A DNA stretch of 64,000 nucleotides from NCBI RefSeq assembly GCF_008710275.1, contig NZ_VYQE01000003.1, forward strand, positions 434,001-498,000, written 5' to 3'. The first letter of the stretch is position 1. Every line of letters begins with the position of its first letter. This DNA comes from Histidinibacterium aquaticum. Lineage in GTDB: Bacteria; Pseudomonadota; Alphaproteobacteria; Rhodobacterales; Rhodobacteraceae. The position numbers and the translations under genes were made by a program. Of the stretch, positions 33,749 to 64,000 are shown piece by piece. The notes beneath the pieces were generated by a model. The model was not told where the DNA came from. It saw only the letters and a list, made by a program, of their open reading frames with translations, and did no database searches.

Positions 33749-33904
33749 GGGGTGTCTCCGTGCGTCTGGGAAAAATGAAGGAGGCCGCCAGCCTCGGCGG
33801 GTTCTCCGGTTCTGCCTCAAGGTAGGGGCGGCGGTCGGCGATTGCAAACAAACAGGGCCCGAATTGGCCTTTTCGGCCCCTTCCGCCCGTGCAAATCTGC
33901 CCCC

Positions 33905-41036: not shown

Positions 41037-42263
41037 ATGAAACTGCAGGACCTCGAGATCTTCGTCGTCTCTCCCCCCGATCCCGGCTGGGGAGGCCGCT
41101 ACTGGATCGTGCCGAAGATCACCACCTCCGACGGCGTGACCGGCTACGGCGAATGCTACGCCGCCACCGTCGGCCCCGAGGCCATGCGCGCGGTCATCGA
41201 GGACGTCTTCTCCCGCCACATGCAGGGCGAGAGCCCCGACCGCGTCGAGCTGATGCGCCAGAGGGTCTACTCCTCGGGCTTCACCCAGCGCCCCGATCTC
41301 ACTGTCATGGGTGCTTTCTCCGGTCTCGAGATCGCCTGCTGGGATATTCTCGGCAAGGCGGCGGGGAAGCCCGTCCATGCCCTGATCGGCGGCCGGGTGA
41401 ACGACCGTATCCGCTGCTACTCCTACCTCTATCCCGGCGCCGACGACGCCCTGCCCGAGTTCTGGACTTCCGCCGAGGCCGCCGCCCGCGCCGCCAAGCG
41501 GCTGGTGGGCGAGGGCTACACCGCGGTCAAGTTCGACCCCGCCGGCCCCTACACCATCCGCGGCGGCCACATGCCCGCCATGACCGACATCTCCCGCTCC
41601 ATGGCCTTCTGCGAGGCGGTGCGCGAGGCCGTGGGCGACCGGGCCGACATCCTCTTCGGCACCCACGGCCAGTTCTCCGTCGCCGGCGCGATCCGCATGG
41701 GCCGCGCGATCGAGGAGTACGACCCGCTCTGGTACGAAGAGCCCGTGCCCCCCGACAACCCGCAGGCCATGGCCGAGGTCGCCGCCGCCACCCGCGTCCC
41801 CGTCGCCACCGGCGAACGGCTGACCACCACCGCCGAGTTCGCCGCCGTCCTGCGCGCCGGCGCCGCCCGCATCCTCCAGCCCGCCCTCGGGCGCGCCGGG
41901 GGTATCTGGGAGGGCCGCAAGATCGCTGCCCTGGCCGAGAGCTTCGGCGCCCAGATGGCGCCGCACCTCTACGCCGGACCGGTGGAGTGGGCGGCCAACC
42001 TCCAGCTCTCCGCCGCGATGCCGAACCTTCTGCTCGCCGAGACCATCGACACCGATTTCCACCGCGCCCTGATCGGCGGACGCATCCGGGTCGAGGGCGG
42101 CTACGTCGAGCTCTCCTCCGAACCCGGCCTCGGCATCGACTTCGACGAGGACCTCGCCCGCGCGCACCCCTGGACCGGCGAAGGCCTGCACCTGCAGATG
42201 CAGGAGAGCCCGGTCAGCTATCACGAGGAAAACGTCTTCGAGGGCGGCGCGCCGCGTCGCTAG
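41037..42263 (+). CDS. Mandelate racemase/muconate lactonizing enzyme family protein
   Basis: The 408-residue protein has the enolase-superfamily barrel: GRYWIVPKITTSDGVTGYGE at the capping domain, YTAVKFDPAGPY, LFGTHGQFSVAGA at the end of a barrel strand, WYEEPVPPDNP, ATGERLTT and MAPHLYAGP with a catalytic histidine. It is probably a sugar-acid dehydratase. The third barrel ligand region reads GTHGQ rather than the more usual DxHG. GGAGGCCGG precedes ATG 41037. The operator-like palindrome lies upstream. Confidence 0.85.
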   Translation: MKLQDLEIFVVSPPDPGWGGRYWIVPKITTSDGVTGYGECYAATVGPEAMRAVIEDVFSRHMQGESPDRVELMRQRVYSSGFTQRPDLTVMGAFSGLEIACWDILGKAAGKPVHALIGGRVNDRIRCYSYLYPGADDALPEFWTSAEAAARAAKRLVGEGYTAVKFDPAGPYTIRGGHMPAMTDISRSMAFCEAVREAVGDRADILFGTHGQFSVAGAIRMGRAIEEYDPLWYEEPVPPDNPQAMAEVAAATRVPVATGERLTTTAEFAAVLRAGAARILQPALGRAGGIWEGRKIAALAESFGAQMAPHLYAGPVEWAANLQLSAAMPNLLLAETIDTDFHRALIGGRIRVEGGYVELSSEPGLGIDFDEDLARAHPWTGEGLHLQMQESPVSYHEENVFEGGAPRR

Positions 42264-42268
42264 CGCTC

Positions 42269-42294
42269 CCCCTCTTCTGGGCCAAATATCCCCG
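42269..42294. repeat. Degenerate intergenic repeat, copy 2
   Basis: This 26-base stretch containing TTCTGGGCCAAATATCCCCG resembles the stretch at 25729-25754 (19 of 26 positions). It begins five bases after the enolase-superfamily stop and continues into a small CGGAG/CTCCG inverted repeat. Sequences of this type recur between genes in Rhodobacteraceae, by recollection. Confidence 0.35.
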
Positions 42295-42403
42295 CCGGAG
42301 GCTCCGCCATCCGCACGCGCTCAGGCCCCGGGGCATCGGGCTCACGCCCGCCGGAGAGACCGCGATAGAGAGAGGGCCGGCGCAGCCGGGCCTCGCCGCC
42401 GGA

Positions 42404-42432
42404 TTGACGCGTCCCCGGGCAGGGCGTACCAA
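42404..42432 (+). promoter_or_regulatory. Candidate promoter of the leader-peptide attenuator
   Basis: TTGACG at 42404-42409 and TACCAA at 42427-42432 are spaced by 17 bases. A start seven bases downstream would fall on the A of the ATG at 42439, making the leader peptide message leaderless, as in the trp attenuator of Sinorhizobium. The -10 is weak (3 of 6 consensus positions). Confidence 0.45.
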
Positions 42433-42438
42433 AGCCCC

Positions 42439-42486
42439 ATGACCCGTCCCGTCGCCTCCAGCTATTTCTTTACCGGATCCCTTTAG
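42439..42486 (+). CDS. 15-residue leader peptide of a transcription attenuator
   Basis: The short frame encodes MTRPVASSYFFTGSL and ends at TAG 42484-42486. It has no ribosome site upstream, which fits a leaderless start at the promoter. The cluster Ser-Ser-Tyr-Phe-Phe (42457-42471) is a plausible stall site. A strong terminator follows 28 bases later and the acetyltransferase gene 89 bases later. Pairing options support an attenuator: bases 42450-42455 can pair with 42498-42503, and 42491-42496 with 42518-42523. The regulatory reading is an inference; the peptide might also be a chance frame. Confidence 0.55.
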   Translation: MTRPVASSYFFTGSL

Positions 42487-42514
42487 GACCCGGCGGAGCG
42501 ACGTGACCAGACCG

Positions 42515-42538
42515 AAGCCGCCGCGAGGCGGCTTTTTT
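42515..42538 (+). terminator. Intrinsic terminator between leader peptide and GNAT gene
   Basis: AAGCCGCC (42515-42522), a GCGA tetraloop and GGCGGCTT (42527-42534) form an 8-base stem running into six T residues (42533-42538). It is placed 37 bases before the acetyltransferase start, so transcripts must read through it to express that gene. An alternative fold with 42491-42496 would break the stem. Confidence 0.85.
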
Positions 42539-42575
42539 CGTTCCCCCTCGCGGCCCTGCCGACAAGGAGCCGCGC

Positions 42576-43043
42576 ATGGACCGTGCGACGATCAGACCCT
42601 TCACCTACACCGACCTGCCCGAACTGCACCGCATGATCGGTGCGCTCGCCGCGCATCACGGTGACCCGCCTCCGCCCGACCGGGAGGCACTGCTCCGCGA
42701 CGTGACCGGGGCAGCGCCGCTGGCAACGATCCTGATGGCCTCCGACAGTCGGGGTGCAGCCGGCTATGCCGCGCTCAATCTGGTCCCGCGCCTGCACGAG
42801 GGCGGCCGCGGCATGGAGCTGCATCATCTCTGGGTCGAACCCGACCGGCGCGGCAGCGGCACCGCCCGGCGGCTCATCGAGGCGGCGAAGAGGCTCGCCG
42901 TCGAGAAGGGCTGCAGCCAGCTCACCGTCGGCACGCATCCGTCGAACGCCGAAGCCCAGGCCTACTACCCCCGCGCGGGCTTCGAGCCGATGGCGACGGG
43001 CGGTCCGCGCTTCCGCCTGCGGCTGGTCCCGGCTGAGGGCTGA
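42576..43043 (+). CDS. GNAT family N-acetyltransferase under probable attenuation
   Basis: The 155-residue protein has a GNAT core: RPFTYTDLPELHRMIGALAAHHG, ELHHLWVEPDRRGSGTARRLIEAA with the acetyl-CoA pyrophosphate loop RRGSGT, and NAEAQAYYPRAGFEPM. The substrate could be an amino acid, amine or antibiotic. AAGGAG lies before ATG 42576. The terminator and leader peptide upstream suggest that expression depends on translation of a Tyr-Phe-Phe-containing leader. Confidence 0.82.
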   Translation: MDRATIRPFTYTDLPELHRMIGALAAHHGDPPPPDREALLRDVTGAAPLATILMASDSRGAAGYAALNLVPRLHEGGRGMELHHLWVEPDRRGSGTARRLIEAAKRLAVEKGCSQLTVGTHPSNAEAQAYYPRAGFEPMATGGPRFRLRLVPAEG

Positions 43044-43110
43044 GCCCGGAGCCTCCGCGATCGAGCGCGCGACCTTTCCATCCCGCGCGCCCTCCGTCAC
43101 TCTCCGGAAC

Positions 43111-43797
43111 ATGGCAAAGACCGCGCCCGGAACGCCTTCGCTCCTCCGCCGCCTCGCCGCGCGGGCGGCAGGGCATGCCATCGTGCTCTTCGCGCGCTTC
43201 GTCACCGCCGTCCGCGCCGATTGGCGCGGCAGCGAGCCGGTGCCCCGCCAGCGCATCTACTACGCCAACCACGTCTCCAACGGCGACATGCCGATGATCT
43301 GGTCGGTGCTGCCTCCCGCGATCCGCCGCACCGTCCGGCCCGTCGCCGCGGCCGACTATTGGCTGCAGACGCCCCTGCGCGCCTTCATCGGGCCCGAGGT
43401 TTTCCGCTGCGTGCTGATCGACCGCCGCCCGGAGCACCGGACCGCCGACCCGGTGGAGACCATGGTCGCCGCCCTGGACGAGGGCGCGTCGCTGATCCTC
43501 TTCCCGGAGGGGAACCGCAACATGACCGAGGACCCGCTCCTGCCCTTCCGCTCCGGCCTCTACCACCTCGCCAAGGCGCGGCCGGACGTCGACCTTGTGC
43601 CGACCTGGGTCGCGAACCTCAACGAGATCATGCCGAAGGGAGAGGTGATCCCCCTTCCGCTCATCTGCACGGTCACCTTCGGAGCGTCGGTCCATCTCGA
43701 GCCGGGCGAAGACCGCGCGGCCTTCCTCGACCGGGCCGCCCGGGCGCTGGTGGCTCTCGCGCCGGACCGCCGCCTGCCGCCGGGAGAGGCGGCATGA
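43111..43797 (+). CDS. Lysophospholipid acyltransferase family protein (PlsC-like)
   Basis: The 228-residue protein has the acyltransferase HX4D motif (NHVSNGDMPM) near residue 51, a basic loop and ILFPEGNRNMTED (the glycerol-phosphate-binding motif), with a later VPTWVANLNEIMPKGE. It transfers acyl groups to lysophosphatidate or a related lipid at the membrane. ATG 43111 is chosen because the region before it shows no family sequence. It overlaps the CdsA-like gene by four bases. Confidence 0.87.
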   Translation: MAKTAPGTPSLLRRLAARAAGHAIVLFARFVTAVRADWRGSEPVPRQRIYYANHVSNGDMPMIWSVLPPAIRRTVRPVAAADYWLQTPLRAFIGPEVFRCVLIDRRPEHRTADPVETMVAALDEGASLILFPEGNRNMTEDPLLPFRSGLYHLAKARPDVDLVPTWVANLNEIMPKGEVIPLPLICTVTFGASVHLEPGEDRAAFLDRAARALVALAPDRRLPPGEAA

Positions 43798-63688: not shown

Positions 63689-64000
63689 ATGCCCGCCACG
63701 ATCTCCCGCGCCGACTACGCCGCGATGTTCGGCCCCACCACCGGCGACAAGGTGCGGCTCGCCGACACCGACCTCGTGATCGAGGTCGAGAGCGACCGCA
63801 CGGTCTACGGCGAGGAGGTCAAGTTCGGCGGAGGCAAGGTGATCCGCGACGGCATGGGCCAGAGCCAGACGACACGGGCCGAGGGCGCCATGGACACCGT
63901 GATCACCAACGCGCTGATCGTGGACGCCACCGGCATCTACAAGGCCGACGTGGGCCTCCGGGACGGGCGCATCGCCGCCATCGGCAAGGCCGGCAACCCC
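63689..64000 (+). CDS. ureC: Urease subunit alpha, N-terminal part
   Basis: The frame is open to the window end, covering 104 codons of Ure[30 protein letters not shown] and [21 protein letters not shown] are the standard N-terminus before the nickel-binding barrel, which lies beyond the window. AAAGGACC precedes ATG 63689. Confidence 0.97.

Follow-up and report, generated by a model that had tools for sequence, protein, structure and literature searches.

A probable tyrosine-sensing, ribosome-mediated attenuator upstream of a GNAT acetyltransferase gene in alphaproteobacteria

As a rule, a ribosome-mediated attenuator governs genes for the biosynthesis, transport, or tRNA charging of the amino acid to which it responds. 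What, then, would such a device be doing in front of an acetyltransferase gene? This question is raised by the window analyzed here, a 64,000-nucleotide stretch of the Histidinibacterium aquaticum genome, in which a short reading frame with aromatic codons and an intrinsic terminator precede the gene of a 155-residue GNAT acetyltransferase (42576..43043, + strand; Pfam PF00583, 1.7e-14), the proposed regulated gene. Conservation of the leader, of its Tyr position, of the spacing, and of the alternative pairings, together with recurrence of the layout before tyrA genes and a tyrS gene, argues for transcription attenuation of the ribosome-mediated kind, responding to charged tRNA-Tyr and controlling the GNAT gene, a reading to which a probability of about 0.88 is assigned on these comparisons.

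The promoter-like elements and the start codon described in the first-pass annotation are all present. A -35-like TTGACG (42404..42409, on the + strand like all the leader features), read from the sequence, is followed after a 17-nt spacer by a -10-like TACCAA (42427..42432), which is weak, with 3 of 6 positions identical to TATAAT; a promoter scan of 41500-43500 gave no site at its threshold, TACCAA included. The leader ATG (42439-42441) lies 7 nt past the end of TACCAA, and since it sits at the expected start point we infer that the RNA starts at or beside it. The frame opened by this ATG (42439..42486), probably leaderless, is present as claimed, with 15 codons of the Ser-Ser-Tyr-Phe-Phe type, MTRPVASSYFFTGSL, and a TAG stop (42484-42486). 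Its putative regulatory codons, Tyr-Phe-Phe (TAT TTC TTT, 42463..42471), stand at -7, -6, and -5 from the stop, Tyr having slipped one codon relative to the -6 seen in most relatives.

The RNA downstream offers several competing pairings. Segment 1 (42450..42455) would find its partner at 42498-42503 in untranslated RNA, and an equivalent helix with compensatory changes is present in a four-sequence alignment of the genus. An inner hairpin, CCGG...CCGG (42474..42493), suggested by RNA folding and by the genus alignment, shares bases with the Thr-Gly codons, the stop, and the antiterminator arm, while segment 2, the candidate antiterminator arm CGGCGG (42491..42496), would lie under a ribosome positioned at the stop, given the footprint assumed. 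Segments 3 and 4 make up an intrinsic terminator recovered by a terminator scan (42514..42538), GAAGCCGCC GCGA GGCGGCTTT followed by a T-run; the first-pass description of a GCGA-loop terminator with six T before the GNAT gene holds, except that the stem of the hairpin (42514-42535) has 9 pairs, 6 of them G-C, and not 8 bases. The T-run occupies 42533-42538, and its last T is 37 nt from the GNAT gene. Both alternative pairings that had been proposed, 42450-42455 with 42498-42503 and 42491-42496 with 42518-42523, are exact 6-bp complements, and the fold of RNA 42440-42540 is 4.4 sd better than those of 200 dinucleotide shuffles. At gathering scores, Rfam returned no family in the window leader, where all matches stayed below threshold, and none at the leaders of the 12 relatives searched.

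In the proposed mechanism, RNA polymerase would start at or beside the leader ATG, and a ribosome would translate the 15 codons. With Tyr-tRNA plentiful, the ribosome would arrive at the stop and cover CGGCGG (42491-42496), and the terminator (42514-42535) would form. When Tyr-tRNA is short, the ribosome would instead halt at the Tyr(-Phe) codons and open the 5' hairpin, and the freed CGGCGG could pair with the CCGCCG of the terminator before the 3' arm is made, with readthrough into the GNAT gene as the expected outcome. Were the leader not translated at all, the 5' stem would capture segment 2 and the terminator would again form.

How widely is this arrangement kept? Within the genus, a GNAT match at E 1e-15 was found in 4 of 5 genomes, and all four of these carry a 15-codon leader in place (MTRPVASSYFFTGSL, MTRQTVRTVYFTGSH, MIRHAASTAYFTGPR, and MTRHAISTVYFTGSE) followed by the GAAGCCGCC...GGCGGCTTT terminator. 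The 5' stem that would sequester segment 2 shows a compensatory change at 4 of its 24 predicted pairs, in an alignment of four sequences, one of which looks by eye to be shifted by a single base. A covariance model built from the four genus leaders found matches ahead of GNAT genes elsewhere in the family, beyond the genus. Conservation of the frame upstream of orthologous GNAT genes had been named as a check in the first-pass annotation, and among the best 80 of 101 candidates from one GNAT-alignment scan of named genomes, a Tyr-containing leader is kept upstream of 68 loci, mainly in Rhodobacterales and Rhizobiaceae, with none at the other 12. A Tyr frame of 8-22 codons with a strict terminator 18-42 nt past its end occurred in 57 of the 80 intervals upstream of GNATs versus 0 of 3276 background intervals, these being the other 355-nt intervals of the same loci on both strands. 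Eleven of the 68 leaders were found by eye, their hairpins being weaker or differently spaced, or the locus running off its contig; ten by-eye GNAT leaders lack a correctly spaced strict terminator, and 10 of the 11 entered the anatomy count below, L138, cut by the contig start, being left out.

The leaders extend over Rhodobacterales, Rhizobiaceae (Rhizobium, Agrobacterium, Ciceribacter, Sinorhizobium, and others), and one Bradyrhizobium, and in Sinorhizobium meliloti the leader MIKNAPISSVYFWLFR lies upstream of a GNAT gene. Among 4 of 6 matching plasmid records examined, both Sinorhizobium records carry leader and terminator, the Paracoccus record has a leader without a strict terminator, and the Methylobacterium record has no leader. 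When mapped onto a tree of 79 named GNATs and that of the window (80 in all; L107, whose frame is broken, was left out), the leader labels fall into clusters, and 6 changes are needed to account for the 12 rows without a leader, at least 4 of these changes being forced by well-supported branches. This pattern fits an old leader with several losses, the direction of change being presumed.

The anatomy was compared over 64 picked leaders (63 GNAT, 1 tyrA; repeats of one locus, such as L053/L157, included), which comprise 52 distinct peptides and 26 non-redundant leaders. In 61 of the 64, TTGA[CT] starts 35-37 nt 5' of the ATG, and a Shine-Dalgarno-like 4-mer is missing in 51, as would be expected for an RNA that begins at the ATG. 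The peptides are alike in little beyond their aromatic codons. Because the picker demanded an aromatic pair with Tyr, the presence of Tyr in all 52 peptides is partly by construction, whereas the distance from Tyr to the stop was unselected. This distance is regular: of the 54 distinct GNAT leaders (51 supplied by the picker and 3 added by hand), 45 have Tyr as codon -6, as do 9/10 tyrA leaders and the single tyrS leader (1/1), and the next codon, -5, encodes an aromatic residue (Phe, Tyr, or Trp) in 53/54, 10/10, and 1/1, respectively. The 10 by-eye GNAT leaders are less regular, with Tyr at -6 in 3 and long tails in some. Past the stop, the order GCGG-CCGC-GCGG is found in 53/54 GNAT leaders versus 1.4 expected in shuffles, and likewise in 5/10 by-eye GNAT (0.3 expected), 8/10 tyrA (0.3), and 1/1 tyrS leaders (0.1).

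Whether these elements could act as a switch was modeled by removing the ribosome footprint, assumed to reach 12 nt beyond the first A-site base, and by leaving the 3' terminator arm unmade. At least 4 nt of the 5' terminator arm were then paired upstream in 64/64 leaders stalled at Tyr and in 9/64 stalled at the stop. Among the 26 non-redundant leaders (25 GNAT, 1 tyrA), at least 4 arm nucleotides entered the antiterminator in 26/26 with the ribosome at Tyr versus 6/26 with it at the stop, so that the pairing potential appears conserved, and the earlier proposal that a ribosome pausing at the Tyr-Phe-Phe codons would favor the antiterminator, with readthrough as its predicted consequence, gains support. 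The mean antiterminator energy was -12.9 kcal/mol for native leaders, -9.5 for shuffled spacers, and -12.2 for spacers swapped between loci; because 456 of 20000 permutations of spacer and terminator partners reached the native energy, coevolution past the common GGCGG/CCGCC core is modest. The Rhizobiaceae alignment (28 sequences, of which 23 are distinct) contains one position, column 88, whose partner is column 63 in the antiterminator and column 106 in the terminator; both pairs are kept in 23/23 distinct leaders despite a G/A change at this column, most of the remaining pairs of both helices being invariant and, therefore, uninformative.

At equilibrium, full-length RNA behaves less decisively, with a mean terminator probability over the 64 leaders of 0.96 when free, 0.61 with the ribosome at Tyr, and 0.98 with it at the stop, and only 26/64 leaders fall below 0.5 when stalled at Tyr. 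For the window RNA, the terminator wins at equilibrium wherever the ribosome is placed (P = 1.00), so readthrough here would have to be kinetic. Such kinetic switching is usual for ribosome-mediated attenuators. With the ribosome at Tyr, the window antiterminator takes up 5 arm nucleotides (-13.4 kcal/mol); moving the ribosome to the stop still leaves 4, now at -2.4 kcal/mol, a small difference in arm pairing, and placing it at the start codon leaves 0. The -13.4 kcal/mol barely beats the -12.5 of shuffles, and this antiterminator is the weakest part of the evidence.

The same layout recurs before other genes. One type of prephenate dehydrogenase gene (tyrA) occurs in 10 of 198 family genomes, and it is from the occurrence of this type alone that these tyrA genes are called patchy. 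Tyr-Tyr leaders, mostly Tyr-Tyr-Pro, precede 9 of these 10 (L191-L195, L197-L200) as well as the query locus (L068/L250; PF02153), most with the order GGCGG/CCGCC/GGCGG; a scan of the 10 tyrA upstream regions placed a strict terminator in 0/10, while L068 does have one. In another alphaproteobacterial family, the leader MTEMMHITAVYFARLP, with Tyr-Phe codons, and a terminator precede tyrS in genome G605 (L201/L210). The encoded protein is a tyrosyl-tRNA synthetase by TIGR00234 (357.9 bits), possibly an auxiliary one; a second tyrS lies elsewhere in this genome. Among tyrS loci from 30 of 39 matching genomes, leader and terminator were found only at L210, the same place as L201, and were absent from the other 29; in three of these (L213-L215) a Tyr-containing frame overlaps the gene start with no terminator, and these were not counted. 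Model R2 gave 9 matches, with a Tyr leader at L201 alone. Among the best matches of the general model R3 in 394 family genomes, MTRLTHLFFQNWWRA and MKTIIVITKRWWLPF precede trpS in two genomes (L261/L262), both from the window's family; these leaders carry Trp-Trp, and the proteins score 216.8 and 219.4 bits with TIGR00233 (cut-off 176.75). The presence of Trp codons ahead of trpS and of Tyr codons ahead of tyrS and tyrA serves as an internal control, indicating that the codons reveal which amino acid is sensed, and for the tyrA and tyrS relatives the target lies within the metabolism of that amino acid.

The best 30 R3 loci comprise 19 GNAT (10 newly read and 9 at places covered before), 2 tyrA, 2 trpS, and 1 SnoaL-like loci, 4 that looked like chance (L260, L268, L272, L273), and 2 terminators without a leader (L269, L271); models R1, R2, and R3 all pick up bare terminators as well. 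Within the GNAT set, L263 starts with GTG instead of ATG, and the frame of L270 ends directly after Tyr. At the SnoaL-like locus (L267), a Tyr leader, MIKTRATSTTYYRS, lies upstream of the gene, whose product has no assigned function.

Does the leader sense tyrosine in particular, or phenylalanine, or the aromatic amino acids jointly? The window leader contains two Phe codons against a single Tyr codon, 49 of the 52 distinct leaders contain F and 30 contain W, a Tyr-Phe-Trp run occurs in 28 rhizobial leaders, and F occupies -6 in 5/54, so that an attenuator of the same build responding to Phe or to all three is an unlikely alternative. It accounts poorly for Tyr in 52/52 (partly the picker's doing), for leaders with Tyr and no adjoining Phe (RYYRR, YYP), and for the predominance of Tyr at -6 (45/54), which also holds before tyrA and a tyrS; nor did any pheA or pheST target appear among the matches examined. 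Of the Phe/Tyr sensing suggested in the first-pass annotation, the tyrosine half is retained, since Tyr, and not Phe, is the near-constant sensed codon across the set and the one that recurs before tyrA and tyrS. In this genome, with Tyr slipped one codon and two Phe codons next to it, Phe may contribute.

The remaining alternatives dispute that the leader senses an amino acid for the GNAT gene at all. The unit is short, probably leaderless, and ends in a strong terminator, as would suit an independent small mRNA or sRNA like rnTrpL/peTrpL, with the GNAT gene under a separate promoter; peTrpL acts in trans according to the part of the source consulted (PMC7298713), and both roles can coexist. 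Such independence is nevertheless improbable, given that the leader stays just 5' of the same GNAT clade though neighbors differ between genomes, that the antiterminator geometry is conserved, and that the codons fit the target at tyrA, tyrS, and trpS. About as improbable, or slightly more so, is a drug-sensing leader, with translation stalled independently of Tyr-tRNA by a ribosome inhibitor or by the nascent peptide, a type known for erm and bmrCD from the accessible accounts. GNATs are often resistance enzymes, which speaks for it, while arrest peptides are conserved in sequence and the present peptides are alike in little besides aromatic codons, and the trpS leaders of the same layout hold Trp-Trp instead. 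A random short frame ahead of an ordinary terminator can be almost dismissed: high GC does ease GGCGG/CCGCC pairing, as the small penalty for swapped spacers illustrates (-12.2 vs -12.9 kcal/mol), but coincidence is contradicted by the 57/80 versus 0/3276 count and by a Tyr position and spacing that are similar across orders.

With charged tRNA-Tyr as the preferred signal, the locus can be set against known systems. The Phe leader of Rfam (RF01859) likewise has aromatic codons in a short leader followed by a terminator. The window leader was rejected as a member, its 19.4 bits falling short of the gathering score (55), and no pheA or pheST target appeared among the matches examined. In Streptomyces, an attenuator of an auxiliary, antibiotic-resistant TrpRS gene was reportedly described by Vecchione and Sello in 2010. 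It too is reportedly ribosome-mediated and serves an extra synthetase gene, a parallel to the tyrS with a Tyr leader, but it concerns Trp, another phylum, and a synthetase rather than an acetyltransferase target. The rnTrpL/peTrpL attenuator of trpE(G) in S. meliloti, in the portions of the sources consulted, is an alphaproteobacterial, ribosome-dependent device with a 14-residue leader and regulatory codons, whose trpL RNA begins at its AUG and so is leaderless (PMC10117765, PMC7298713); it differs in sensing Trp and controlling a biosynthesis gene, in contrast to Tyr and an acetyltransferase in the window. A Tyr/GNAT attenuator was not found in searches of an open-access paper library, and none is mentioned in the parts consulted of PMC2965389, PMC1273637, PMC10117765, PMC7298713, PMC4117421, PMC4787780, and PMC3817062. 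The mechanism as such is already known in kind, while the GNAT target and tyrosine as the sensed amino acid appear new. Tyrosine would thereby join the attenuators of alphaproteobacteria, with some tyrA genes and a tyrS coming under the same design, and a widespread Tyr leader tied mainly to one acetyltransferase clade would be a strong clue that the enzyme is wanted when Tyr-tRNA is scarce, narrowing the substrate search to tyrosine analogs, tyrosyl-adenylate mimics, and aromatic amines.

What the acetyltransferase does can be approached from its predicted structure. The AlphaFold2 model has a mean pLDDT of 93.6, the closest solved folds include SSAT2/SSAT1, and an SSAT-like family profile matches at 1e-19, so that by predicted fold and profile the protein is SSAT-like. 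PDB entries 2bei and 2fe7 (SSAT/thialysine acetyltransferases) superpose on the model with TM 0.81-0.84 and rmsd 1.5-1.6, and an Asn and a Tyr of the C-terminal half of SSAT2, a thialysine acetyltransferase, align with those of the GNAT. Identity to SSAT2/2fe7 is, however, about 26%, and the HHGD stretch of the first helices (positions 27-30) is kept in neither; His28 and Gly29 of this stretch are invariant across a 66-sequence alignment, and several additional GNATs among the best R3 loci read HHDD or HHHD. The gene is patchy, with a match at 1e-22 in 64/394 genomes, and PADLOC gave no match to it as a defense gene. At 22 of the 80 named loci (L104, L121, L147, L149, L156, and 17 more), all on rhizobial branches of the tree, the GNAT has a same-strand downstream neighbor belonging to one cluster, the single member scanned (L156) being DJ-1/PfpI (PF01965); among the 16 largest clusters listed, no sense-strand neighbor is common beyond closely related groups.

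A role in removing compounds that deplete Tyr-tRNA is favored on circumstantial grounds, because the gene is patchy, its induction by Tyr-tRNA shortage is predicted, and the switch is common to patchy tyrA and an extra tyrS. The analogy is with the MccE/RimL acetyltransferases, which, in the part of the source consulted and as compared by description, inactivate aminoacyl-nucleotide inhibitors that block tRNA charging by acetylating them (PMC3817062); no leader peptide is described for them there. An unassigned step of tyrosine metabolism would also fit. More speculatively, and with the balance against it, the GNAT might acetylate and inactivate a tyrosine mimic or TyrRS inhibitor, with DJ-1/PfpI as its partner in rhizobia and with the extra TyrRS and prephenate dehydrogenase as other cures within one alphaproteobacterial emergency response to failing tyrosine charging. 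If so, the patchy GNAT would point to natural compounds, of a family still to be discovered, that deplete Tyr-tRNA.

Several other features were seen in the window. At 33775-33875 (+), a weak full-length R3 match (22.6 bits) combines a frame, MKEAASLGGFSGSASR, with a hairpin and contains no Tyr, and is probably due to chance; the frame of the gene that follows is HAD-like by eye. At 63842-64000 (-), the Rfam family 5_ureB_sRNA (RF02514) matches with 56.6 bits and is cut by the window end. Upstream of the leader, an enolase-superfamily dehydratase (MR_MLE) is encoded at 41037-42263 (+), and by eye its homologue likewise ends upstream of the leader in three same-genus loci.
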